A program made the translations under genes and the position numbers. From Nitrospinota bacterium (GTDB lineage: Bacteria > Tectomicrobia > Entotheonellia > J063): a DNA stretch of 11,872 nt. Location of the stretch: positions 1 through 11,872 of the forward strand of contig RFHZ01000299.1 in NCBI GenBank assembly GCA_003696125.1, read 5' to 3'. Shown here in pieces: positions 19-11,872 of this stretch. The notes under the pieces were generated by a model, which was given only the letters and a program-made list of their open reading frames with translations, did not search any database and was not told the DNA's origin. Position 1 is the stretch's first letter. Each line of letters starts with the position of its first letter.

Positions 19-432
19 TTAGCGAGTATCATCCCCAGGAGGCCGGGTAGAGATGGTTACTTCAAGGGCACCCGCCTGTCTCGAGATATCCATCGCTCTG
101 ACGAAGAATCCCAACGGGACTCCTCTATCCGCGTTGATCACCACCACCTTCTCCGGGGAGTTGGCCAGACTCTGCTGCAGGCGCTCTGGTAAATCTTCCC
201 AGGACACCGGTTCCAGGTCGAGATAGAGTTCCCCCTCGCCGGTAAGTGAAATCACATGTTCCTCGACATCCTGTACCTCGGCTGTCTGCGCTTCGGGGAG
301 GGTCAACTCAATCCCCGTATGCATAAAGGTAGAGGTCAGGAGGAAAAAGATGAGCAGCAGGAACACGATATCTATGAGCGGGGCGATATTCAGCGTGTTC
401 TCAACCCTCTTTCTCCGGGTAAACTCTATCAT
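19..432 (-). CDS. exbD: ExbD/TolR-family proton-channel subunit
   Basis: Inner-membrane partner of ExbB. Together they use the proton gradient to energise TonB, which opens outer-membrane receptors. The 137-residue length is normal for ExbD. A short cytoplasmic basic N-terminus (TRRKR, residues 5-9) precedes one transmembrane helix at about residues 15-36. That helix carries the family's conserved aspartate (D21, in the motif APLIDIVF), the proposed proton carrier. The rest is the periplasmic domain ending near RPPG. The ATG at 432 has a good AAGGA site 7 nt upstream and lies inside the 3' end of exbB, so the two genes overlap by 32 nt and are probably translationally coupled. Position downstream of a TonB-dependent receptor favours ExbD over TolR. 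No tonB gene is visible, although one could follow to the left. Confidence 0.93.
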   Translation of the reverse strand: MIEFTRRKRVENTLNIAPLIDIVFLLLIFFLLTSTFMHTGIELTLPEAQTAEVQDVEEHVISLTGEGELYLDLEPVSWEDLPERLQQSLANSPEKVVVINADRGVPLGFFVRAMDISRQAGALEVTISTRPPGDDTR

Positions 433-1042
433 AGGCCTGTCCTTTTAAGGTCTGTAAGATCTCCATGCTCGCATTTTGCATCCGGAAGGCGTACTCATCG
501 ACCTTCCCTTCCAGATAGTGGTAGACGAGGAGCACCGGGATGGCCACACTCAAGCCGGCTGCCGTGGTGAGCAGGGCCTCCCAGATTCCGCTGGCCAGGA
601 TGCTCGGATTCACCTTTCCCCCCAGATGGGCGACTTTCATAAACGCCTTGACCATCCCCAGTACCGTCCCCAGCAATCCCATGAGCGGGGTTATGTTCCC
701 GATCACCCCCAGTCCACGCAAGTATTTAGAGAGGTCCTGCAGGTAGCGGGAACCCAGGAGGGAGATCGTCTTTTCCAGGTCCTCTGGGGGACGGTGCCGG
801 TTTCGGATCACCTCTTCCAGCAACCGGGCTACCATATCCTGGGAGTGCTGACACAGGGCCATGGCTTCCTCGAACTTGTTCGAGAGGATGCAATGCTTGA
901 TTTGCGCCACGAGCTCTTCGGAGTCGTTTTTGGTCCGGGCAAACCGCACCGCCCGTTCGACGATGATGGCCACCGCCAGCACCGAGCAGAGAGCAATGGG
1001 GATCATCATGATCCCCCCCTTAGCCAGAAATTCGATCATCAT
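401..1042 (-). CDS. exbB: ExbB/TolQ/MotA-family proton channel protein
   Basis: Inner-membrane proton-channel subunit that acts with ExbD to drive TonB-dependent transport. It has three predicted membrane segments: near the N-terminus (about residues 9-26), and two long helices near residues 105-128 and 155-178. The second helix contains the family hallmark GNITPLMGLLGTVLGM, and the third contains EALLTTAAGLSVAIP. A cytoplasmic stretch rich in charged residues separates segments one and two, as in ExbB/TolQ. The frame can be read from a GTG at 1048, but ATG at 1042 has AGGG about 5 nt upstream and is preferred, giving 213 residues. ATG at 1039 is also possible. It starts about 12 nt after the upstream gene's stop and overlaps exbD, so all three are cotranscribed. 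Association with the receptor upstream favours ExbB over TolQ. Confidence 0.92.
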   Translation of the reverse strand: MMIEFLAKGGIMMIPIALCSVLAVAIIVERAVRFARTKNDSEELVAQIKHCILSNKFEEAMALCQHSQDMVARLLEEVIRNRHRPPEDLEKTISLLGSRYLQDLSKYLRGLGVIGNITPLMGLLGTVLGMVKAFMKVAHLGGKVNPSILASGIWEALLTTAAGLSVAIPVLLVYHYLEGKVDEYAFRMQNASMEILQTLKGQAYDRVYPEKEG

Positions 1043-1054
1043 AGACACCCTGCG

Positions 1055-1654
1055 CTATCGGTACAGAAAGATATCATCGACCCATAAGGTCCCGCTTGTC
1101 CCCGGCTTATTACGCGTATACGGCTCGGTCAAAAGGAACCACAGTCCAAAGGCCGCATCATCAATGGTCGGATGTTTGGGGAGTTTGGACTTCTCATACG
1201 CTTCTGGAACAAAGAGTTTAAACGGTATCCGCACTTCTGTCCAGTCGGGACGGATTTTAATGCGAGGACTGTACCACACCTCCTGGGAATCGTAGATACT
1301 CAATACCACATGCTTAAGCCCTGTCCCCTTGAGATGGAGACCGATCCCCCTATACCCGGCGAACTTCGGCAGTTTATGGGTCCGACCAAAGCGCAGCTCA
1401 CCGGATTTCAGCTTGACCGTCACCCGACCCGCACGCTTTCCCCCTGCTTTCTCCTCGGTGTCGCAGGTAAAGAGACCGGAGGAGGTACTCCCCTCTATCT
1501 CCGGTACAAACCAGATCTCCAGGTTGGGGTCACAATCCTCAAAGTCGTCCAGGATCAGGATCCTGGAGGCAGCGCCTGCCCAGCTCATGCCTCCCAGCAG
1601 ATAGAGCCCCAGACCTACCAGCAGCATTATCCTGCTCCATCTTCCTGTCACCAT
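1055..1654 (-). CDS. Exported protein with CBM11/CIA30-like beta-sandwich domain
   Basis: Function unknown. The first 30 residues look like a Sec signal peptide: an Arg-containing start, a leucine/glycine hydrophobic core near residues 10-24, and a probable cleavage after an Ala-Gly-Ala stretch. The mature part of about 170 residues begins with ILDDFEDCDPN and continues with alternating beta-strand patterns (GRVTVKLKSGELRFG, GIGLHLKGTG, WTEVRIPF) and ends with GTLWVDDIFLYR. That layout resembles CBM11/CIA30-type galactose-binding-like jelly rolls, where the opening D-D-F-E and the closing 'DDI' strand are typical. This is pattern recognition and not a proven homology. The gene lies between a TonB-dependent receptor and exbB, with about 50 nt and 12 nt gaps, so it is probably part of the same transport operon. 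It may bind a ligand or the receptor in the periplasm. An internal ATG at 1627 is an alternative start but would shorten the signal peptide's basic end. Confidence 0.7.
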   Translation of the reverse strand: MVTGRWSRIMLLVGLGLYLLGGMSWAGAASRILILDDFEDCDPNLEIWFVPEIEGSTSSGLFTCDTEEKAGGKRAGRVTVKLKSGELRFGRTHKLPKFAGYRGIGLHLKGTGLKHVVLSIYDSQEVWYSPRIKIRPDWTEVRIPFKLFVPEAYEKSKLPKHPTIDDAAFGLWFLLTEPYTRNKPGTSGTLWVDDIFLYR

Positions 1655-1702
1655 CCCTTCCTTACTCCCCTTGTTCCATTCCTTCCCGCTCTATCCCTGG
1701 GA

Positions 1703-3832
1703 CTAGAGGCCTCCAGACCAGGTATGGCTCAGGGAAAGCCCCCCGTACACGTTGAAATCGGGTCCCGGCTCAAAGAAGCGTCCTCCAAAGGCGTTAAGCC
1801 GGACGTTGGCGTTATACTGGTCATCAAAGAGATTGTTTAAACCGAGGAAAGGGGAAACCTCCCAGTTTCCAAACTGTCCGACATAGCCCAGACGGAGATT
1901 GGCAATCGTGTAGGCGTCGTTCTGTACCGTGTTCGCGTTATCGGCAAAAAATTTGTCCACGAACAGAATATCCCAGATGCCGTACAACCCGGAAGGGTGA
2001 AAGTAGGCGATCTCTCCATGGAGCTGGTGTTTGGGGATGCCCGGAATCTCGTTATCGTCGAACACCCCATCCTCGGTCCGAAACTCCTCGAAGAAGAAGT
2101 CAGAAAAGGTATAGGCCACAGAAGCGGTAAGGCCTTTCCACAACTCCGCCTTCAATCCCAACTCCACCCCATTCCGGGTAGATTTGCCGGCGTTACGGAA
2201 GAAGGTGCGTCCAGGGTTATCGGGGAGCTCAAAGGGGATGAGCTCATCTTCGACCCGTACCGTAAACAGGGCCAGCTCGTAGCTCCACCTTCCCCGCCAG
2301 TTTCCCTTCACCCCGATCTCATAGTTCGTTGCCTTCTGTGGTTCCAGGTCGGGATTGAATCCTCCGCGTCCAGAGGGATTGGCAAATTCCGTGGTTGTCG
2401 GGGTCTCAAAAGAGGTGGAGACATTCCCGTAGATGTGCAGGGCGGGGGAAAAGGTGTAGAGTAACCCGATCATGGGGCTGAATTTATCCAGCGTTCGTGC
2501 TCCCGAATCATCTCCATCGCTCAGGAAGAAATCCTCCACACTGAACCGTACCCGATCGTAGCGCACTCCCACGGTCAACTCCAGGTTTTTGAGGAGGCGA
2601 AACTCGTCCTGGATGAACGGCCCGATGCTGCTCACCTCCTCTTCCTGGTTGAATACCAGATCACCGAGCTGTCCGTTGTTGTTATCGAAGCGCCGGCGGT
2701 CATCGTTCTGCAACTCCAGATCGATACCGAGGGTCAGCCGGTTGCGTCGCCCCCAGATCTGGGTGGTATAGATATACTTCATCCCCCCTCCGACCACGAA
2801 GCGGTCGAAATCGACGCTCCCTCCTCCCTGGAAGGGGAGTTTATTGGCAAAATCACGAAATACATAGTAGGCATTGGCGCTCAGTTCATGACTCTGGCCG
2901 AACCGCTTCTGGTAGACCAGCCCGAAACGTCCCTGCGTGATATCCTCACCAGCATCAAATTGCACATTGCGATCTCTGGCCTGCCGGGGGTCTGCCTCGG
3001 CCTGCTCGCGTGTCAGGGCACCCGGGTCATCGGCAATCGGCGCATGGGCGAAGTTAATCAAGGCGGTGACCGTGGAAGTCTCGTCGATGTCTAGCCGCAG
3101 TTTGCTATTGACCAGTACGTTCTCCGTTCCACTATGCTCGCGGAAGCCTTCCATATCCAGGCGGGAGAGGTTCACGAGGTAGTTCAGCGGTCCGTGTTGC
3201 CCGCCGGTCTTCAGTTGATACTTCTGAAAACGAAATTCTCCCCAAGAGAGCCGGGTCTCTACAAACGGTTCCTCCGGTCCCTCTTCGGTAATGATACTGA
3301 TCACCCCACCCGAGGCGTTCCCGTACAGGGAAGAGGTGGGGCCGCGGATCACCTCAATCCTCTCTGCAGAGCCGAGATCGATGTTATCGACCTGTGCCTG
3401 TCCATCGGGTAGGGTTTCGGGGATGCCATCGACGAGGATCTTGACCCCCCGGATACCGAAGGCGGCACGTGCCCCAAAGCCCCGGATGGCGATCCGCAAA
3501 TCCTGGGCAAAGTTAAAACGGTTCTGGAAAAAGAGGCCGGGGATCTTGACCAGAGACTCATCCAGTCCCAGCTGTTGCCGACCCAGTTGAATATCCTCTT
3601 TCTCCACGGCCCCAACCGCTGCAGGAACCTCCAGCAGGGGTTTGGCCACACGGGGTGCGGTAACGATGTTCGGCTGGAGTTTGATCGCTTCTTCCGCCTG
3701 CTCCTCTCCCGGTTGTGGGGGAGCCGACTCCTGCTCCTCTGCGGCTCCCACCTCTCTCGATCCGGGATAAAACCCCAGCGGGTTGATCACCACGAGAAAC
3801 CCTACCAGCAAGAGAAGTACTATCTTGCGCAT
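1703..3832 (-). CDS. TonB-dependent outer-membrane receptor (LutH-like by context)
   Basis: Outer-membrane gated beta-barrel that imports a scarce ligand using TonB/ExbB/ExbD energy. At 709 residues it has normal length. There is a signal peptide at about residues 1-31, then an acidic Pro/Glu-rich linker. A possible TonB box lies around NIVTAPR (near residue 55). The plug domain spans about residues 65-185 and contains IRGFGARAAFGIRG, DGIPETLPDGQ and the classic VIRGPTSSLYGNASGGVI. The C-terminal barrel includes a 'FETPTTTEFANP' block and NPDLEPQKATNYEIGVKG, typical of this superfamily. The last strand ends SHTW followed by four extra residues (SGGL), not at an aromatic. The start at 3832 has an excellent GGAGGAGG site. 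Substrate cannot be read from sequence. Siderophore, heme, cobalamin or copper uptake are alternatives, but the neighbouring PQQ-associated ABC genes make a lanthanide complex the leading inference. Confidence 0.93.
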   Translation of the reverse strand: MRKIVLLLLVGFLVVINPLGFYPGSREVGAAEEQESAPPQPGEEQAEEAIKLQPNIVTAPRVAKPLLEVPAAVGAVEKEDIQLGRQQLGLDESLVKIPGLFFQNRFNFAQDLRIAIRGFGARAAFGIRGVKILVDGIPETLPDGQAQVDNIDLGSAERIEVIRGPTSSLYGNASGGVISIITEEGPEEPFVETRLSWGEFRFQKYQLKTGGQHGPLNYLVNLSRLDMEGFREHSGTENVLVNSKLRLDIDETSTVTALINFAHAPIADDPGALTREQAEADPRQARDRNVQFDAGEDITQGRFGLVYQKRFGQSHELSANAYYVFRDFANKLPFQGGGSVDFDRFVVGGGMKYIYTTQIWGRRNRLTLGIDLELQNDDRRRFDNNNGQLGDLVFNQEEEVSSIGPFIQDEFRLLKNLELTVGVRYDRVRFSVEDFFLSDGDDSGARTLDKFSPMIGLLYTFSPALHIYGNVSTSFETPTTTEFANPSGRGGFNPDLEPQKATNYEIGVKGNWRGRWSYELALFTVRVEDELIPFELPDNPGRTFFRNAGKSTRNGVELGLKAELWKGLTASVAYTFSDFFFEEFRTEDGVFDDNEIPGIPKHQLHGEIAYFHPSGLYGIWDILFVDKFFADNANTVQNDAYTIANLRLGYVGQFGNWEVSPFLGLNNLFDDQYNANVRLNAFGGRFFEPGPDFNVYGGLSLSHTWSGGL

Positions 3833-3881
3833 CTCCTCCTCCTCCCTGGTCCATCGAGTTACTCATACCATGCCGTCCTGC

Positions 3882-5093
3882 TCAAAATTTACACCGACTC
3901 TCTGCCCGGTCATAGCCGAGTGTATCCAGCTTGGTTGTCGGATGCAGAAATCCCTCCTGCGGAGAGATGGAAACCCGGGCACGGGGGGTAGCCAGGATAA
4001 TCGATTGTCGGAGTTGATGATTCCAGGGGCGAAAGTCGAGGGAAGGACCCTTGTACCCATCAAAGGTCACCTCCGGATCGAGGAGATAGGCTCTGACCGC
4101 CTGCACCTCGGTCGATCTGGTCCGCACCATCGCTTCGGCAATCATCTTCATCGCCATCCAACTGGCCCAATCCGTATTCTCCATCTTCCGGCCGGTCAGC
4201 CGGATGAAACGTGCGTTGAGCTGGGTAGCCCCCCATTGGGCAAAGCCCCAGAACCAGACCACCGGTCGCAGTCCCTGCGTGCCTGCCACCGGTCGCGGGA
4301 GATAGGTATGATAGGGGAGGAGTTCTCCAAATTCCGCCTCTTCATCTGCCACCACCACCACATCGTACTCGGCTCGTGCCGTAAACAGGGGGAATTCTGC
4401 CTCGGCCGTCCGCCGGATATCCGCGCCTGACTTCCAGAGTCGTGTATCCACAATGCGGGCACCGAAGCGCTGGGCTGCCCGTTTCATCGCCTGGGCAAAC
4501 GCCTGATCTCGTTCACTGGGGCCGGTCACCAGGAGCCAGCGTTTCCAGTTCCGTTTCATCAGATACTGCACCAGGCCGTCGGCGAGCATGGCACGACTGG
4601 GGACGACATGAAAGACGTGGGGAGCACAGTCTTCCTGGCGCAGGTTATCATCGATCGCCGCCACATTGAACAGCAACACCTCCTGCTGTCGTGTTGCCTG
4701 GGCGATCTCTTGCAGCATGGAGCCGGGCACATCGAGGAGAAAAAAACGGATCTGTTCCTGGGTGTAGAGGTTCTGAAGATGGGTGAGTAATTCTGGAGTC
4801 GAACGGCCAAAGCGGGGTACCAGAGCGAACCTCATCTGAAAATAGCGTCCCAGCGTATTCGCCTCCTCTAAGGCCATCCGCGCCCCATCCACCGCCGAAT
4901 ACCTGCCCGTACCGAGTCCAAACTGTCGCAGATCAAGGCCCCCCTCTGGTCCCAAAAACCCGAGATCGACTCCTCCTTCCAGGCCGAGATAACCGACCAG
5001 GACTTCCCGGGGTTGGGCAGCAAAACCGACACCGAGCAGCAGTGCCGTCGCCAGGAGGGTGAAAAGGAGAGAGCAGCGGTACTTCATGGACAT
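3882..5093 (-). CDS. lutA: PQQ-dehydrogenase-associated ABC substrate-binding protein (LutA type)
   Basis: Periplasmic binding protein of the family described as 'ABC transporter, substrate binding protein, PQQ-dependent alcohol dehydrogenase system', related to branched-chain amino-acid binding proteins. A signal peptide occupies about the first 25 residues. Recognisable family features are the early YLGLEGG, NVAAIDDNLRQEDC, PSRAMLADGLVQYL, the mid-protein VVVADEEAEFGELLPY, AGTQGL, QWGATQLNARF, and the distinctive C-terminal SFDGYKG-like/FRPWNHQLRQ, SPQEGFLH and LDTLGYDR blocks. Two cysteines, one after LRQED and one in the final SRCKF, could form a disulfide. Longer in-frame reading to 5210 overlaps the permease and adds a non-signal Arg/Pro-rich leader. 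ATG at 5093 (403 residues) or 5087 follows a GAGGAG site and places the signal peptide at the N-terminus. Known relatives are LutA in Methylorubrum and Ped system proteins in Pseudomonas, both tied to rare-earth-dependent alcohol oxidation. The lanthanide role here is inferred. Confidence 0.88.
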   Translation of the reverse strand: MSMKYRCSLLFTLLATALLLGVGFAAQPREVLVGYLGLEGGVDLGFLGPEGGLDLRQFGLGTGRYSAVDGARMALEEANTLGRYFQMRFALVPRFGRSTPELLTHLQNLYTQEQIRFFLLDVPGSMLQEIAQATRQQEVLLFNVAAIDDNLRQEDCAPHVFHVVPSRAMLADGLVQYLMKRNWKRWLLVTGPSERDQAFAQAMKRAAQRFGARIVDTRLWKSGADIRRTAEAEFPLFTARAEYDVVVVADEEAEFGELLPYHTYLPRPVAGTQGLRPVVWFWGFAQWGATQLNARFIRLTGRKMENTDWASWMAMKMIAEAMVRTRSTEVQAVRAYLLDPEVTFDGYKGPSLDFRPWNHQLRQSIILATPRARVSISPQEGFLHPTTKLDTLGYDRAESRCKF

Positions 5094-5121
5094 AACACTC
5101 CTCTGTCGTCTAAGCAACCGT

Positions 5122-5925
5122 TCAGGTGGCAATGGCCCGCCGGGCCATCCCCTTTTGCGGATCGTATCCATGGATCGCCAGGAGGAGGAAGAGGACAAAG
5201 CTGGTGGCAACGACCAGCAGTCCGATCCAGTTCACCTGGCGATAGATGGCAAAGCGGAGGAGTTCCACCGCATGGGTAAAGGGATTCCCCAGGGCCAGGT
5301 AATAGACCACTTCACTCCCTTCCAGCACCCGCCAGAGCGGATAGAGGGCGGAAGAGAGGAAAAACATGGGGAAAATGACGAAATTCATCACCCCGGCAAA
5401 GTTTTCCATCTGTCGGACATGGGTGGAGAGGAACATACCGAGAGCACTCAGCATCAAGCCGACCAGGATCATGGCCGGCAGTACCGTAAACCAGCCGGTA
5501 ACGGGGATACGATAGCCGACCAGATGGCAGATGAGCAGGAAGACGTAAGCCTGGATGATCGACACGGTGGTGCCGGCCAGCAGTTTTCCCACCAGCAGGT
5601 ACCAGCGGGGCAGGGGTGCTGTCAGCAGGACCCGCATCACCCCCATCTCCCGGTCGTACACCATGGAGAGGGAGGATTGCATCCCGTTGAACAGGAGGAT
5701 CATGCCGATCAGGCCGGGCATGATATATACGGGATAGTAGATATAGGTCTGGTAAGGAGGGATGATGGAGACCCCCAGGATACTCCGAAAGCCGGTGGCA
5801 AAGACCAGTAACCAGACCAGAGGACGCACGATGGCCGAAAGGAGACGGGCTCGCTGTTGCAAAAAGCGGAACCACTCCCGTTTGAGGATACCGCTTAAAG
5901 CGCGTAGCGCGTGTTGGGTATTCAT
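5122..5925 (-). CDS. lutF: ABC-2 type permease, PQQ-alcohol-dehydrogenase system (LutF/PedC type)
   Basis: Inner-membrane subunit of the ABC complex with the adjacent ATPase. The 267-residue length fits the ABC-2 permease family. An amphipathic N-terminus (about 1-25, KREWFRFLQQRARL) leads into six membrane segments at roughly 28-46, 62-82, 112-135, 145-166, 175-198 and 238-256. The cytoplasmic loop MVYDREMGVMRVLLTAPLPRW is the conserved coupling region of ABC-2 permeases. Gene start (ATG at 5925) overlaps the ATPase stop by 4 nt (ATGA), so the two are translationally coupled. The fold is the one usually found in exporters, yet the operon includes a periplasmic binding protein just downstream. 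In studied relatives (LutF, PedC) the same combination occurs, so family assignment is firm while direction of transport is not visible in sequence. Confidence 0.9.
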   Translation of the reverse strand: MNTQHALRALSGILKREWFRFLQQRARLLSAIVRPLVWLLVFATGFRSILGVSIIPPYQTYIYYPVYIMPGLIGMILLFNGMQSSLSMVYDREMGVMRVLLTAPLPRWYLLVGKLLAGTTVSIIQAYVFLLICHLVGYRIPVTGWFTVLPAMILVGLMLSALGMFLSTHVRQMENFAGVMNFVIFPMFFLSSALYPLWRVLEGSEVVYYLALGNPFTHAVELLRFAIYRQVNWIGLLVVATSFVLFLLLAIHGYDPQKGMARRAIAT

Positions 5926-6677
5926 GCCTCCTCTCCTTCTGGTGTCAACCGGGCAAAGGCCTCATGCAGATCGGCCGCTCCGGTCTGCCTGATCATATCC
6001 TCCGGGGTCCCTTCACAAACGATACTCCCTTTGTGGAGCACCAGGACCCGATCCACCCCATTGACCTCCTCCAGCAGATGGGTGGCCCAGAGCACGGTCA
6101 CCCCCTCCTGTCGGCAGAGCTGGCGCACGTGGTCATGCAGGAGGCGACGAGAAGCGATGTCTAAACCGGCTGTCGGTTCATCCAGCAAGAGGAAGCGGGG
6201 ATGGTGGAGCAGGGCACGCATCAGCTCCACGCGCCGGCGATGCCCCCCGTTCAGCTTCCGCACCTGCTCCTTCAACCGATCCTGCATTCCCAGGCGTTTC
6301 GCCTCCTCCTGGATCCGTGCCTTTGCCATGCGGCGAGACATGCCTTGCAGGGCAGCGTGGAACATCAGGTTCTGAGTGACGGTTAAGTCGAGATCCAGGG
6401 TCTGCTGTTGAAAAACCACCCCCAGCGAGGCCAGGGCAGCTACCGGATTTCTGGTCGTGTCGTACCCATTCACCAGCACCCGGCCGGCATCAGGATTGAA
6501 CAAGGCGGTGATCAGATTGAAGAGGGTCGTCTTACCCGCCCCATTGGGACCGAGCAGCACCACGAACTCTCCGGGGAAGATGGAGAGGGAGATGTCTTTG
6601 AGCGCCACCCTCTGGCCATAGGTCTTGCGGAGTTTTTCCACGACTAAAATCGGCTCTGCATTGGCCGTGCCTGTCAT
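5922..6677 (-). CDS. lutE: ABC ATPase, PQQ-alcohol-dehydrogenase system (LutE type)
   Basis: Cytoplasmic nucleotide-binding subunit that powers the ABC-2 permease encoded immediately downstream. All core motifs are visible in the 251 residues: Walker A GPNGAGKTT at 43-51, Q-loop at Q90, Walker B FLLLDEP ending at E167, D-loop GLD at 171-173 and switch histidine H200 in ATHLLEEV. The signature is LNGGH (142-146) where LSGGQ is standard, followed by RRRVE. I recall this substitution as usual in the PQQ-associated ATPase family, but cannot check it here. A single ATPase gene implies a homodimer. ATG at 6677 has an AGAGGA site 7 nt upstream and lies 18 nt after the beta-propeller gene's stop. The protein resembles DrrA/CcmA-type exporter ATPases and not importer ATPases, matching its permease. 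Confidence 0.92.
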   Translation of the reverse strand: MTGTANAEPILVVEKLRKTYGQRVALKDISLSIFPGEFVVLLGPNGAGKTTLFNLITALFNPDAGRVLVNGYDTTRNPVAALASLGVVFQQQTLDLDLTVTQNLMFHAALQGMSRRMAKARIQEEAKRLGMQDRLKEQVRKLNGGHRRRVELMRALLHHPRFLLLDEPTAGLDIASRRLLHDHVRQLCRQEGVTVLWATHLLEEVNGVDRVLVLHKGSIVCEGTPEDMIRQTGAADLHEAFARLTPEGEEA

Positions 6678-6695
6678 AACCGTATCCTCTTCCTT

Positions 6696-7676
6696 TTAAT
6701 CGTTCACCAGCACCGTCCAGGGAAAGCGGCCGGTGGGGACCGACTTGATCACCTCTAAGCGTTTCACATCGACGATGGAGACATCGTTGCTCGTCCCGTT
6801 GGCCACGTAAAGCTTGCCATCATCTGAGGTCAGATCCATGCCCCAGGGACGCCCCCCGACCAGGAGAAACTTGCGGATCTTGTAAGTGCGGGCATCGATG
6901 ACCGCCACATGATTGGCCCGTCCCAGACTGACAAAGGCCAGCCTGCCGTCTCGGGTCAACTCGATCTCCTTGGGTGTGATGTCGTACTTCCGGATTCCCC
7001 GCATGCGGATCTCGATCCTCTGCACGATCTGCCAGGAGCTGGTATCGATGACCGAGACCGAGGCGCCGCGTTCCGAGGAGACCCAGAGTTTTTTCCCGTC
7101 GTGCGAGAAGACGCATTCGCGGGGACGCAGGTCTACCGGTACCGTGGCCACCTCCTTCTGCACCCGCGTATCGATGATATGTACCATACTGGTCGATTCA
7201 GAGGTGACACAGACCCAGCGCCCATCGTCGTTTACCCCCACCCCTTCCGGCTCGATCCCGACCGGGATCTCCTGCACCACCTTCTTCGTCTCGATATCGA
7301 TCACAGAAGCGGTATTCTGGTCCTCGTTGGAAATGTAGATATATTTCCCGTTGGGATGCACAATAAACATCTCCGGATCATCTCCGGCCGGGAGGTGATC
7401 CACAACCTTCAGGGTCTCCGTATCGATGACCCCCAGGGCATTCTCCTCCCCCAGGGCCACATAGAGATGGCGCTTATCCACGCTCAGCTTCAGATCACGC
7501 GGGCGTTCTCCTACCGGGATGGTCGCAATAACCTTATCTGTCTGGAGATCGAGGACGCTGACGGTGTTATCCTTTTCATTCGATACATAGACATGATTCT
7601 TCCCTGCTGCCCATCCCAGAAGCGGGAACAGCAGTATGGTGCAAACGATAATAACCAGCAGGTGCCCGACTCTCAT
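6696..7676 (-). CDS. PQQ-catabolism-associated beta-propeller protein (YVTN repeats)
   Basis: Exported beta-propeller of the family named 'PQQ-dependent catabolism-associated beta-propeller protein'. After a signal peptide (about residues 1-24, ending LLGWAA) come seven-bladed-type repeats of about 42 residues: HVYVSNEKDNTVSVLD, HLYVALGEENALGVID, YIYISNEDQNTASVID, and further copies at about positions 152, 193, 245 and 285. Each is followed by an IPVG/VPTG-like strand and P-x-x-hydrophobic turn. Enzymatic function is unknown. Such proteins are repeatedly found with the LutA/E/F-type ABC genes, so a periplasmic accessory or chaperone role in the transport or dehydrogenase system is likely. The frame extends to an ATG at 7718, but ATG at 7676 (326 residues) follows AAGGAG by 7 nt and begins a proper signal peptide. 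It is the first gene of block B. Confidence 0.87.
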   Translation of the reverse strand: MRVGHLLVIIVCTILLFPLLGWAAGKNHVYVSNEKDNTVSVLDLQTDKVIATIPVGERPRDLKLSVDKRHLYVALGEENALGVIDTETLKVVDHLPAGDDPEMFIVHPNGKYIYISNEDQNTASVIDIETKKVVQEIPVGIEPEGVGVNDDGRWVCVTSESTSMVHIIDTRVQKEVATVPVDLRPRECVFSHDGKKLWVSSERGASVSVIDTSSWQIVQRIEIRMRGIRKYDITPKEIELTRDGRLAFVSLGRANHVAVIDARTYKIRKFLLVGGRPWGMDLTSDDGKLYVANGTSNDVSIVDVKRLEVIKSVPTGRFPWTVLVND

Positions 7677-7683
7677 AGATCCT

Positions 7684-7689
7684 CTCCTT
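7684..7689 (-). promoter_or_regulatory. Shine-Dalgarno site fixing the beta-propeller start
   Basis: Minus-strand AAGGAG lies 7 nt before ATG at 7676. It decides against the upstream in-frame ATG at 7718, which would add 14 residues before the signal peptide. Confidence 0.75.
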
Positions 7690-7720
7690 TTTCCCTGCAC
7701 AAGCTCAGGAACAGTCATCT

Positions 7721-7765: not shown

Positions 7766-7792
7766 GTAGGGACGCAGCGCGCTGCGCCCTAC
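7766..7792. repeat. REP-like GC-rich palindrome
   Basis: GTAGGG-A-CGCAGCG is followed directly by CGCTGCG-CCCTAC, giving 13 paired bases per arm with one bulged A. It sits in the 142-nt gap between the NitT/TauT-type operon and the beta-propeller gene. No T-run follows on either strand, so it is not a standard intrinsic terminator. GTAGGG...CCCTAC palindromes of this kind resemble dispersed intergenic REP-type repeats. In RNA it would form a strong hairpin that could cap the upstream transcript or separate expression of the two operons. Confidence 0.65.
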
Positions 7793-7818: not shown

Positions 7819-8613
7819 TTATAACAACTCACTCACATCGGTCTCTTCGTAGTTGTGTCGCAAAAAATCGTTGACAATACGCGCATTCAGGGCAAAGATC
7901 TGCGGATCACTGTACCGGCGAGGCCGTGCAAGCGGGATGGTAATCTCATCGTAGATCGACCCCGGGCTCTTGGTCATCAGGAAGATGCGATCGGCGAGAT
8001 AAACCGCCTCGTACGCGTTATGCGTCACAAAGATCACCGTCTTCTGCAGGCGACTCCAGATATGCAAGAGCTCCCGCCGCATCTTGCGAGCCGTCAGCTC
8101 GTCCAAAGCACTAAACGGCTCGTCCATGAGGAGGACATCCGGGTCTACGGCAAAGGCACGGGCCAGGGAGACCCGCTGCGCCATCCCTCCGGAGAGTTGC
8201 GCAGGGTAGTAGTCGCGGTAATTCCACAACCCGACCAGTTCCAGATATCTTCTCACCCGCTCCTCCCACTCCTCTCGCGGATACCCCTCTGATTCCAGCA
8301 CAAACTCCAGGTTCTGGCGAACCGTCAACCAGGGTAAGAGCCGGGGTTCCTGAAAGATGTAGCCGATATGGACCGCTGGCATCTCTGCAGGGGCCCTCAG
8401 CTTCCCGTTGAAGAGGACACGTCCCGTATAGCGGGTATCCAGTCCACTCAGGATATTCAACAATGTCGTCTTGCCACAACCGGAGGGTCCTAACAGGCAG
8501 ACAAACTCCCCATCCTTCACCTGGAAGGAGACGGCATCGAGCGCACAGAAGGCCGGTCGATCGGCTCCGGTATCATACTCCTTGCGCACTCCGATGACTT
8601 CGATACTGGCCAT
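7819..8613 (-). CDS. NitT/TauT-family ABC importer ATPase (SsuB/TauB-like)
   Basis: ATP-hydrolysing subunit of an importer whose permease and binding protein are encoded directly upstream. The 264 residues show Walker A GPSGCGKTT (42-50), Q-loop Q88 within GYIFQEPRLLPWLTV, signature LSGGM (140-144), Walker B VLLMDEP ending at E165, D-loop SALD, and switch histidine H198 in FVTHNAYEAVYLADR. QEPRLLPWLTV and the THN-x-x-EA-x-x-LADR pattern are characteristic of the nitrate/sulfonate/taurine subfamily. ATG at 8613 follows the permease stop by 2 nt, with GAGGA inside the end of the permease gene, so translation is coupled. The substrate cannot be read from an ATPase. Family members serve nitrate, sulfonates, bicarbonate, pyrimidine precursors and others. 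Confidence 0.92.
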   Translation of the reverse strand: MASIEVIGVRKEYDTGADRPAFCALDAVSFQVKDGEFVCLLGPSGCGKTTLLNILSGLDTRYTGRVLFNGKLRAPAEMPAVHIGYIFQEPRLLPWLTVRQNLEFVLESEGYPREEWEERVRRYLELVGLWNYRDYYPAQLSGGMAQRVSLARAFAVDPDVLLMDEPFSALDELTARKMRRELLHIWSRLQKTVIFVTHNAYEAVYLADRIFLMTKSPGSIYDEITIPLARPRRYSDPQIFALNARIVNDFLRHNYEETDVSELL

Positions 8614-8615
8614 GG

Positions 8616-9428
8616 CTATCCTCGCCAGCGAAACAGTGCCTGTTCTACCCTTTTGACCACCAGGAACTCGATCAAGAGCATGACGCCGACGAATAAGAGG
8701 GTATAAGAGAGGACATGCGCCATATCGGCGAGCTGGAAGAACAGGTGTAACTGAAATCCCATGCCGTTACTCCGTCCCAGGAACTCGACGACCAGGACGA
8801 TCTTCCAGACCAGAGAGAGGCTGGAGCGGGCAGCAGCCATGATATAGGGAGCCACCTGGGGAAGGATGACCTTCAACAGGATACGACGACGCGAAGTCCG
8901 GTACGCCTTCGCCATGTCCACCAGTTTCGGATCGATAGCCTTTACCCCTTCCTGGATAGCGACGGTGATGACCGGAATCTTATTCGCCGCCACGGCAAGA
9001 ATGGCCGCCCACTCATTCAATCCCAGCGCCAGATAGGCGACAAAGATATAGATCAGGGCCGGCGTGTTTAACGCCAATACCAGCCAGGTATCGAGCAGGG
9101 TCTCTACCCGGCGGGAGAGTCCCATGGCCAGTCCTGTAATCACCCCCAGGAGCATGGCCAGGGTAAAGCTCCAGAAGATCCGGAACAGGGTGGTGCCGAG
9201 ATGATAAAAGATCTCCCCTTGCCGCACATCTTCCCACAGGGTGTGTATGGTCAGCCACGGACCCGGCAGAACCAGGGGGGAGAGGAGCCAGGAGGAGACG
9301 GTCCACACGGCCAGAAGCGCTACAGCAGAGACGACTCGATTCCAAAAGGGGTGATAGGCGAGCGGACGCAGCAGGGGGAGATTCCTGGTATCAACACCTG
9401 CCGTATCCATGAGTTTTGACTGTTCCAT
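8616..9428 (-). CDS. NitT/TauT-family ABC importer permease (SsuC/TauC-like)
   Basis: Inner-membrane channel of the block A importer, 270 residues. About six membrane segments are visible, beginning near residues 33-52 (SAVALLAVWTVSSWLL) and 84-104, then several through 115-165 and 205-260. The coupling (EAA-type) loop is at about 169-195, reading VDMAKAYRTSRRRILLKV then PQVAPYI, which is where the ATPase docks. LNTPALIYIFVAYLALGLNEWA follows the SsuC/TauC pattern P-x-x-A..P-h-h-h.a..GhG. ATG at 9428 lies 21 nt after the stop of the binding-protein gene and has only a weak GAGAG site, suggesting coupling to its neighbour. Substrate is unknown. Confidence 0.92.
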   Translation of the reverse strand: MEQSKLMDTAGVDTRNLPLLRPLAYHPFWNRVVSAVALLAVWTVSSWLLSPLVLPGPWLTIHTLWEDVRQGEIFYHLGTTLFRIFWSFTLAMLLGVITGLAMGLSRRVETLLDTWLVLALNTPALIYIFVAYLALGLNEWAAILAVAANKIPVITVAIQEGVKAIDPKLVDMAKAYRTSRRRILLKVILPQVAPYIMAAARSSLSLVWKIVLVVEFLGRSNGMGFQLHLFFQLADMAHVLSYTLLFVGVMLLIEFLVVKRVEQALFRWRG

Positions 9429-9449
9429 ACCGTGTCTCTCAGCCCGTTC

Positions 9450-10511
9450 TCAGAAAGAAATCTCCTTCAGGAACGTCCCCTCCGGGATCTGTTCCGTTCC
9501 GATAAGCCGTTTTCCACCGATACGCCGCATGATGTGGAAGAGTCGCTCCAGATTGGCAAAGGTCTCTGCATCCCATCTTCTCGGTACCCCCTTTCGCCAG
9601 GCCTCCCGAATCAGGATCAGCGTCTTTTCGTCAGGAGCCCTGACCAGATCCGCTATCTCCTTCCAGGCCTCATCATGGTCGAGCAGATACTGTTTCGCCT
9701 CATAGACGGCATGAATGAAGTTCTGCACCAGTTGACGATTCTGGCGGACCAGCTTCTCGGGGAAGACGTAGACCAGCAGCGGTACCGTTTCCGAAAGCCC
9801 TAACTCCCGCATCAGGGCATCGACACTCACCAGTTGCCGGGTCTTCCCTTTGGCCAGCAGACGGGCAATGAAGTGCCAGAACTGGACGATCGCATCCAGC
9901 TCGCCTCGCTCCAACTGGACCGAGGCCAGGGGAGGTGCCACCGAGACCGTCTCGGTCAGGTCTTGCAGATCGCTTCCATACCGTTGCAGGTAAACCGCAC
10001 GGAGGATCAACCAGCTCTTATCCAGCGGTCCTCCGGCCAGCCCGATCTTCTTCCCCTGCAGGTCAGGGAGATCCTGAATCGGCGAATCCTTGGGAACCAC
10101 CACCCCACCCACGGTTTGACTATACGGGAAAGCGGTCAGCAGAACCCCTTGCGACCGCTGACGGGCCACCCAGAACCAGTCATCCACAATCACATCGACC
10201 GCCCCTCCTTGCAGGGCGACCTCGGTGGCCGACTTTCCCGCGTACGGGACCACGTCCAGCACAAACTGGTACTTGGTATCCAATCCGAGCTTTTTGAGAA
10301 TCGTCATCTCCCACCGCACACTCCCTTTGGCCAGTGCTCCGACCCGCAGGTGAGGCAACTCTGCCGCCATACCCGGTCCCAGGAAAAGACCCACCAGGAA
10401 GACCACCAGGAGAAGAGAGCGGAAAATCGTCCTTCTGATTAATACTGCTGAGAGGGAAATAACCGGGGTACGCAGTCGAAACGCTTTAGTATCTCTTATT
10501 ATCCGTTGCAT
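9450..10511 (-). CDS. NitT/TauT-family ABC substrate-binding protein (SsuA-like)
   Basis: Periplasmic ligand-binding protein of the block A importer. Starting at 10511 gives 353 residues. An unusually long positively charged N-region (about 28 residues) precedes the hydrophobic signal core LLLVVFLVGLFLG and a cleavage site near MAA/ELP. The mature protein begins LRVGALAKGSV and shows the family's ligand-binding pattern: ALQGGAVDVIVDDWFWVARQR, a hydrophobic GVVVPKDSPI strand, DLQGKKIGLAGGPLDKSW, and ERGELDAIVQFWHF. The AGGPLDKSW block marks a subgroup distinct from the classic sulfonate-binding SsuA, so ligand specificity should not be copied from SsuA. The frame extends to an ATG at 10589, but that start falls inside a TTGACA box and lacks a ribosome site, while ATG at 10511 follows GGAGG by 6 nt. 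First gene of the minus-strand run. Confidence 0.88.
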   Translation of the reverse strand: MQRIIRDTKAFRLRTPVISLSAVLIRRTIFRSLLLVVFLVGLFLGPGMAAELPHLRVGALAKGSVRWEMTILKKLGLDTKYQFVLDVVPYAGKSATEVALQGGAVDVIVDDWFWVARQRSQGVLLTAFPYSQTVGGVVVPKDSPIQDLPDLQGKKIGLAGGPLDKSWLILRAVYLQRYGSDLQDLTETVSVAPPLASVQLERGELDAIVQFWHFIARLLAKGKTRQLVSVDALMRELGLSETVPLLVYVFPEKLVRQNRQLVQNFIHAVYEAKQYLLDHDEAWKEIADLVRAPDEKTLILIREAWRKGVPRRWDAETFANLERLFHIMRRIGGKRLIGTEQIPEGTFLKEISF

Positions 10512-10517
10512 GGCGTC

Positions 10518-10522
10518 CCTCC
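10518..10522 (-). promoter_or_regulatory. Shine-Dalgarno site fixing the binding-protein start
   Basis: Minus-strand GGAGG (within AGAGGAGGGA) lies 6 nt before ATG at 10511 and decides that start over the upstream ATG at 10589. Confidence 0.75.
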
Positions 10523-10560
10523 TCTGCCAGCGACCAAACTTAATCCCCACCTGTCCAACA

Positions 10561-10589
10561 TCTCTAATACAAATGGGAGCGATTGTCAA
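10561..10589 (-). promoter_or_regulatory. Possible sigma70 promoter for the minus-strand operon
   Basis: A perfect TTGACA lies at 10589-10584 on the minus strand. At 17 nt spacing the -10 candidate is TAGAGA, a poor match. TATTAG is better but sits only 14 nt away. The -35 is convincing and the -10 is not, so the promoter may need an activator or another sigma factor. It is correctly placed, 50-80 nt upstream of the first gene. Confidence 0.4.
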
Positions 10590-10659: not shown

Positions 10660-10868
10660 GTAAGTAACTATGACTGACTTTTGAGGATTTTTGTGTCTCG
10701 GTAAAACATCGCTGTCTGAAGGCTTTCACCGCCGAGGACGCCGAGCCCGCAGAGTTTTTTGCCCCTGCATCCCGGCGTTCTCTGCGGGCTCGGTGGTAAA
10801 AGATTTTTCCGGTCACGTATGGCCTTAAGATGACTCAGCGTGCAAAAGGGTGAGTAATAGCTACTTAC
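10660..10868. mobile_element. MITE-like element with terminal inverted repeats
   Basis: The left end (10660-10683, GTAAGTAACTATGACTGAC then TTTTG) matches the reverse complement of the right end (10868-10843) at 21 of 24 positions with one 2-nt gap. Between them there is no transposase, only a second, inner inverted repeat. This is the architecture of a short non-autonomous element of about 209 bp. No clear target-site duplication is visible. The inner GCCGAGGACGCCGAG-type sequence resembles intergenic repeats scattered through many environmental genomes. The element lies between promoter and gene, so it would be transcribed into the formate dehydrogenase leader. Confidence 0.55.
10741..10793. 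repeat. Inner inverted repeat (14-bp perfect stem)
   Basis: CCGAGCCCGCAGAG (10741-10754) is the exact reverse complement of 10780-10793, with a 25-nt loop. Pairing extends imperfectly outward (CACCGCCGAG near 10727 against CTCGGTGGT), with a small tandem duplication of GCCGAG in the left arm. In RNA it would form a strong hairpin in the formate dehydrogenase leader. It lacks a following T-run, so terminator function is doubtful. Confidence 0.7.
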
Positions 10869-10902: not shown

Positions 10903-11872
10903 ATGTCGCTCATTGCGGCGCTCAACGCCCTACAGAACCAGCATGGCTATCTACGCGAAAGCGACCTGCGACAACTGGCTGTCACCCAAAAGATCCCCCT
11001 TCACGCCATTCAAGCGGTGGTCTCCTTCTATCCCCACTATCGCACCACCCCTCCTCCGGCGGTACAGGTAAGGGTCTGCCGTGACCTCTCCTGCTATCTG
11101 GCCGGAAGCGATCAGCTCTATGAAGGCCTGCGAGAAGCCCTGGACGGAACCGGGGCCGAACTCCAGCCGGTCTCCTGTCTGGGACGGTGCGATGCCGCCC
11201 CGGCGGTTGCCGTAAACGAAACTCCCCTATCCGGAGCCTCCCTGGAGGCTATCATCCACGCCATTCACCATCCAGAAACCCTGGGAGACGGATGCTTTCA
11301 CCTTACCCAGACCCGCTGGCCGGGAGATCCCTACGCCTCTGTTGAGGATCGCTATGCCGTGCTCCGGCGCCTGCGACAGGGAGAGGCACTCCATGTCATC
11401 GGTATGCTCAAGGAGAGTGATCTGCGGGGGATGGGCGGGGCAGCCTTCCCGGTAGGGATCAAGTGGGAACTGGTCCAGCGACAAAACGCACCGGTGAAGT
11501 ATGTGATCTGTAATGCCGACGAATCGGAGCCGGGCACCTTTAAGGATCGGGTGATCCTGGCCGAACTCCCCCACCTGGTGTTGGAGGGGATACTCATCGC
11601 GGCGCATGTCGTGGGGGCGCAGAAAGGGTACGTCTTTATCCGCCATGAATACGCACCGGAACGACGCATCTTAGCGGCAGAGCTTGCGCGTATCCGTCAC
11701 CTCGGTCTCCTCGATCCGGGGTTTGATCTCGAGATCTTCGTCTCTCCAGGAGGGTATATCCTGGGAGAAGAGACCGCCCTGCTCGAGTGCCTGGAAGACC
11801 GGCGTGGGGAACCACGCAACAAACCTCCCTTTCCCGGAACACACGGCCTGTATAACCGGCCAACCCTGATCA
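10903..11872 (+). CDS. NuoE-NuoF fusion diaphorase subunit, likely NAD-dependent formate dehydrogenase beta subunit (partial)
   Basis: Electron-transfer subunit that passes electrons from a catalytic partner to NAD+ through Fe-S clusters and FMN. It is cut by the window edge after 323 codons with no stop. Residues 1-110 are a short NuoE-like thioredoxin-fold [2Fe-2S] domain with ligands C59, C64, C92 and C96 (C-x4-C and CLGRC). From about residue 135 the NuoF domain follows: the FMN/NADH glycine-rich loop LRGMGGAAFPVGIKW (174-188), ICNADESEPGTFKDR (202-216) and LGEETALLECLEDRR (287-301) leading into KPPFPG. The 4Fe-4S cysteines would lie beyond the window. NuoE-NuoF fusions occur in soluble formate dehydrogenases (Fdh1B/FdsB-like) and in HoxF hydrogenase subunits. 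Formate dehydrogenase is preferred from the C1-type context. ATG at 10903 has AGGAG 7 nt upstream. Confidence 0.88.
   Translation, partial: MSLIAALNALQNQHGYLRESDLRQLAVTQKIPLHAIQAVVSFYPHYRTTPPPAVQVRVCRDLSCYLAGSDQLYEGLREALDGTGAELQPVSCLGRCDAAPAVAVNETPLSGASLEAIIHAIHHPETLGDGCFHLTQTRWPGDPYASVEDRYAVLRRLRQGEALHVIGMLKESDLRGMGGAAFPVGIKWELVQRQNAPVKYVICNADESEPGTFKDRVILAELPHLVLEGILIAAHVVGAQKGYVFIRHEYAPERRILAAELARIRHLGLLDPGFDLEIFVSPGGYILGEETALLECLEDRRGEPRNKPPFPGTHGLYNRPTLI

Follow-up and report, generated by a model that had tools for sequence, protein, structure and literature searches.

A PqqU-type receptor with ExbB and ExbD joined to a Ped/Lut-type ABC block: a probable cofactor-supply locus for a lanthanide-type PQQ dehydrogenase

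The window analysed here, the whole of contig C620 (11872 bases) of genome bin G000, carries a row of genes that brings together a PqqU-type TonB-dependent receptor, an ExbB-ExbD pair and a Ped/Lut-type ABC block, known parts in a combination that we regard as a new variant. We propose that this locus probably provides a single lanthanide-type PQQ dehydrogenase with its cofactors, combining PQQ scavenging with lanthanide handling and encoding its own energising proteins. The original prediction had read the row as a complete, self-contained lanthanide importer; the ABC block and ExbB/ExbD stand, whereas the receptor is probably of the PQQ-scavenging type and TonB is not in the window.

Results

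Eight minus-strand genes lie in a tight row at positions 19-7718, separated by 6-49 bp or overlapping slightly, and their coordinates together with Pfam and NCBIfam matches bear out the earlier description of eight one-strand genes in tight succession. No Rfam or tRNA features were found in the window. Upstream on the same strand is a second ABC importer, comprising an NMT1/SsuA-like binding protein, a permease and an ATPase (window 7819-10589, minus), and the gap of about 100 bp between it and the propeller gene contains a GC-rich palindrome at 7770-7789. Expression of ssuABCDE shifts with lanthanides in one lanthanide-using member of the Beijerinckiaceae (PMC10848612), a parallel that may be coincidence. 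A divergent NuoE-NuoF fusion (window 10903-11871, plus) runs off the contig. Such fusions occur in the diaphorase units of NAD-linked formate dehydrogenases or hydrogenases, and formate oxidation by a unit of this kind would fit C1 metabolism. Between the two divergent operons lies a perfect 14-bp inverted repeat (CCGAGCCCGCAGAG / CTCTGCGGGCTCGG, 25 nt spacing, window 10741-10793), perhaps a repeat element.

The host bin contains a single PQQ alcohol dehydrogenase, encoded on contig C654; the original prediction had looked to the host genome for such an enzyme, and the one found there carries HDDWDYD, with the lanthanide-type D-x-D motif (DYD). This pair of residues marks lanthanide-type PQQ dehydrogenases and occurs in nearly all other PQQ dehydrogenases of the loci that we examined, most of which lie near Lut/Ped-type ABC genes. 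The nearest solved structure in the PDB is PedH, and genes for a cytochrome c and a MoxJ/XoxJ-like protein follow downstream. Judged from its gene content, the host seems unable to make PQQ: pqqC has no match in the bin (positive controls were detected), pqqB reaches 131 bits against a cut-off of 245 (positive control detected) and pqqE 74 bits against 381, an absence that falls short of certain, since the 4.18-Mb bin is split over 990 contigs and has a completeness of 94.8% and a contamination of 8.0%.

Four genes make up the ABC block: a PQQ-associated YVTN beta-propeller of the PedA2 type with a signal peptide (6696..7718, minus; TIGR03866, 389 bits, cut-off 287), an ABC ATPase of the PedB/LutE type (5922..6677, minus; TIGR03864, 338 bits, cut-off 302), an ABC-2 permease of the PedC/LutF type (5122..5925, minus; TIGR03861 (PedC), 389 bits, cut-off 241) and a periplasmic binding protein of the PedA1/LutA type (3882..about 5093, minus; TIGR03863, 447 bits, cut-off 414). 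Translation of the binding protein most likely begins with the Met codon at position 5093, ahead of its signal peptide; an alternative, longer frame begins at an upstream TTG and overlaps the permease gene. All four PQQ-associated ABC families are over their curated NCBIfam cut-offs, and the original prediction was right in assigning the block to the LutA/E/F and Ped type. The permease is 56-62% identical to proteobacterial relatives, and the binding protein 36-43% identical to plasmid-borne ones.

ABC-2 permeases are mostly exporters, and the window permease falls in their ABC-2/DrrB class, which would suit a block that exports something, such as PQQ made in the cytoplasm or alcohol, instead of importing lanthanide. 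We consider this improbable. In its favour, PedB is listed in P. putida as an ABC efflux transporter ATP-binding protein (PMC12997753), and two genomes of the host's class carry a diverged ABC ATPase-permease pair directly beside pqqBCDE (G001, L148 5788-14493; G002, L149 5905-10800). Against it, when lutE or lutF is knocked out La stays in the periplasm and La-dependent growth is blocked (PMC7391723), and almost all the dehydrogenases that accompany Ped/Lut-type ABC blocks belong to the lanthanide type. Moreover, if the host really cannot make PQQ, the persistence of the block in a bin without recognised pqq genes argues against export of home-made PQQ as its role here. The diverged pair of G001 and G002, near which a PQQ dehydrogenase also lies in G001 (L148), could itself serve either in PQQ export or in lanthanide transport.

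The receptor (1703..3832, minus), a predicted PQQ importer, matches E. coli PqqU/YncD (9c4o/6v81) in the PDB at 374 bits and the next receptor at 68 bits. Its best NCBIfam model, top of all families, is likewise PqqU at 450.9 bits, a score so far below the 1200-bit cut-off of the PqqU equivalog NF041535 that we term the receptor PqqU-type and not a member of that equivalog. In the definition of Munder et al. (2025), PqqU has an aromatic residue at Y99 and Arg at R304 and R365 (PMC12124388), and the alignment places F125, R326 and R379 of the window receptor at these sites; Q84, Q121 and R536 of E. coli PqqU are also kept, as Q110, Q147 and R542. This signature appears in 0/21 receptors located close to Lut/Ped-type ABC genes elsewhere. 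In a maximum-likelihood tree the window receptor joins PqqU sequences (88/95), whereas receptors near Lut/Ped-type ABC genes, with ~19-22% identity to it among those compared, form a separate, long-stemmed group (100/100); the LutH type is represented in this contrast by receptors near homologous ABC genes, M. extorquens LutH itself standing outside the comparison.

HMM, PDB match, tree and binding-site residues all place the receptor with PqqU, and on HMM, tree and residues we reject the LutH-like identity that it had earlier been given; the original prediction was probably wrong on its ligand, which would be PQQ. A PqqU-type protein might still import lanthanide or a lanthanide-chelator complex as LutH does, making the locus a complete lanthanide importer after all: the receptor adjoins a Lut/Ped-type ABC block, the lut cluster of M. 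extorquens includes LutH (PMC7391723), and receptor ligands can shift with small changes. Retention of every signature residue, a set lacking in the 21 receptors near Lut/Ped-type ABC genes, and the position in the tree make us regard such a function as unlikely indeed.

Receptors with the PqqU signature also stand beside PQQ dehydrogenases in Rahnella aceris (L153 5830-10561) and on Alteromonas macleodii plasmid pTE101a (L154 1-8941), the latter with Gln at position 274. In an E. coli record (L152 1-2525) pqqU adjoins a YncE-family beta-propeller gene, and since the window propeller also matches the Pfam YNCE model, a beta-propeller recurs beside PqqU-type receptors in these two neighbourhoods. 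Within the host's class, G001 and G002 carry pqqB and pqqC with scores above the cut-offs, plus pqqE and PQQ dehydrogenases, and no PqqU-like receptor, only distant receptors at 55-58 bits; G003 has a receptor of the host's type with no pqqB match. Comparison of the two sets indicates that PQQ synthesis and the receptor are mutually exclusive among the class genomes examined, a pattern and not proof in genomes that are few and partly incomplete.

The receptor gene is followed by one for an exported protein (1055..1654, minus) of unassigned function, perhaps a CIA30-like jelly roll (PF08547, E=0.009, below cut-off); a single-sequence fold prediction gave pLDDT 37, and a plasmid search returned only CIA30-family matches at E=0.2. 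Next come ExbB (401..1048, minus; MotA/TolQ/ExbB family, PF01618, E=1.2e-27) and ExbD (19..432, minus; ExbD/TolR family, PF02472, E=2.5e-31), the contig's last gene. The two overlap by 32 bp and pass the Pfam gathering scores at 96.7 bits (MotA_ExbB) and 108.8 bits (ExbD); as the window ExbB lies below the NCBIfam exbB and tolQ equivalog cut-offs, the choice between ExbB and TolQ was decided by context.

TonB is absent from the window, where ExbB and ExbD are the energisers present. Because the contig ends 18 bases past exbD, the row of genes may extend further. On C654, a TonB C-terminal domain cut by the contig end lies directly upstream of the PQQ dehydrogenase, and a search of the host bin with the TonB of G101 matched this fragment and nothing else. 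G101 and G367, genomes of another phylum, have the order receptor, PQQ dehydrogenase, ExbB, ExbD, TonB. From this gene order and the bin's sole TonB match, we infer that exbD is probably followed by the tonB and dehydrogenase genes of C654; the case for the join is indirect, as the ends of C620 and C654 share no sequence and direct overlap is ruled out. The two contigs are similar in G+C and tetranucleotide make-up, to each other and to further contigs of the bin. That two unrelated operons are adjacent by chance, or that the contig is chimeric or a contaminant, is highly improbable, for although G101 and G367 have a receptor-ExbB-ExbD-TonB set without the ABC block and bin contamination is 8%, the locus lies on one strand throughout with gaps <50 bp and fairly even G+C, its tetranucleotide profile resembles other contigs of the bin and G101 less so, and both of its halves share a link to a PQQ dehydrogenase.

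We compared the locus with the 80 named loci whose permeases are closest to its own, almost all of them in Pseudomonadota, and with eight plasmid loci, in each case including flanks of up to 10 kb on either side. ExbD, TonB and a PqqU-type receptor were found in none of these neighbourhoods, and four comparison loci gave weak ExbB-family matches with no ExbD; the view that ExbB and ExbD are unusual for such clusters agrees with the lack of any ExbB-ExbD pair beside such blocks in the 80 named loci. No further Ped/Lut-type ABC block or permease over cut-off appeared in 386 genomes, mostly of other lineages. A contig scan with the binding protein alone gave no match, and the loci were found through permease alignment. 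The only paper on PqqU and XoxF in the literature searched was that of Munder et al. (PMC12124388), which mentions neither ExbB nor lut genes, and we did not find the combination of a PqqU-type receptor, energisers and a Ped/Lut-type ABC block described in that literature.

Discussion

We favour a reading in which the PqqU-type receptor would capture PQQ outside the cell and ExbB, ExbD and TonB, the last encoded on the presumed next contig, would draw it into the periplasm at the expense of the proton motive force, so that the dehydrogenase there could bind it. The propeller, binding protein, ATPase and permease would meanwhile carry periplasmic lanthanide into the cytoplasm, the role proposed for PedA1A2BC (PMC12997753) and for LutAEF, whose role in lanthanide handling was established by knock-outs (PMC7391723). 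PQQ scavenging and lanthanide uptake have so far been studied largely apart, and this locus suggests that some bacteria acquire the two as one programme.

A bolder version, which we entertain as a possibility while thinking it rather unlikely, is that the receptor imports PQQ with lanthanide (or calcium) already bound, the ABC block then managing the metal. Lys274 of E. coli PqqU sits where the metal site of PQQ lies in the enzymes; many PqqU homologues carry Glu at this position, and a Ca or La ion has been modelled between Glu and PQQ, with low confidence scores for the metal, while the K274E change in E. coli PqqU impaired uptake (PMC12124388). At the site aligned with K274-T275 the window receptor carries Glu296 and next to it Asp297 (codons at 2942..2947, minus), a pair that could hold the metal in place of Lys274. 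Its three nearest receptors (G101, G367 and G003), 57-67% identical to it and sharing the PQQ-binding residues, likewise have Glu followed by an acidic residue, and for 3/4 receptors of this Glu-type clade a lanthanide-type PQQ dehydrogenase is a neighbour or a probable neighbour. If co-import is true, one receptor would deliver both cofactors of the dehydrogenase. The locus offers a natural setting for the published but untested idea that a Lys-to-Glu PqqU carries metal together with PQQ (PMC12124388).

The locus can be set beside several known systems. The window receptor resembles E. coli PqqU over its full length and in all key PQQ residues, and differs in its 34% identity and the Glu in place of Lys274; pqqU stands beside yncE in the E. 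coli record, whereas the window receptor has as neighbours ExbBD of its own and an ABC block of the lanthanide type. That block consists of the same four protein families as PedA1A2BC of P. putida KT2440, and occurs in a host whose PQQ dehydrogenase is of the lanthanide type, with PedH as its closest PDB structure. For P. putida, no homologue of LutH is reported and the passage across the outer membrane is not settled (PMC12997753); the ped transporter is listed there without a receptor or ExbBD, whereas the window locus has both. The xoxF3 clusters of Acidobacteria and Gemmatimonadetes share a YncE-type propeller and a TonB-dependent receptor with the window, and the available portion of that account makes no mention of an ABC block of this type, ExbB/ExbD or a PqqU assignment (PMC10875860). 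Like the window, the lut cluster of M. extorquens AM1 groups a binding protein, an ATPase, a permease and a TonB-dependent receptor (PMC7391723); unlike it, the window has a PqqU-type receptor with ExbB and ExbD, in a host from another, small phylum (five genomes of which were in our comparison set) that apparently lacks pqq genes. The operon of G101 and G367 differs in having no adjoining Ped/Lut-type ABC block and in placing the dehydrogenase between receptor and exbB, and yet its receptor (67%), ExbB (70%), ExbD (64%) and TonB (about 50%) are identical to those of the host to the extent given, with the same Glu at position 274 and likewise a D-x-D dehydrogenase.
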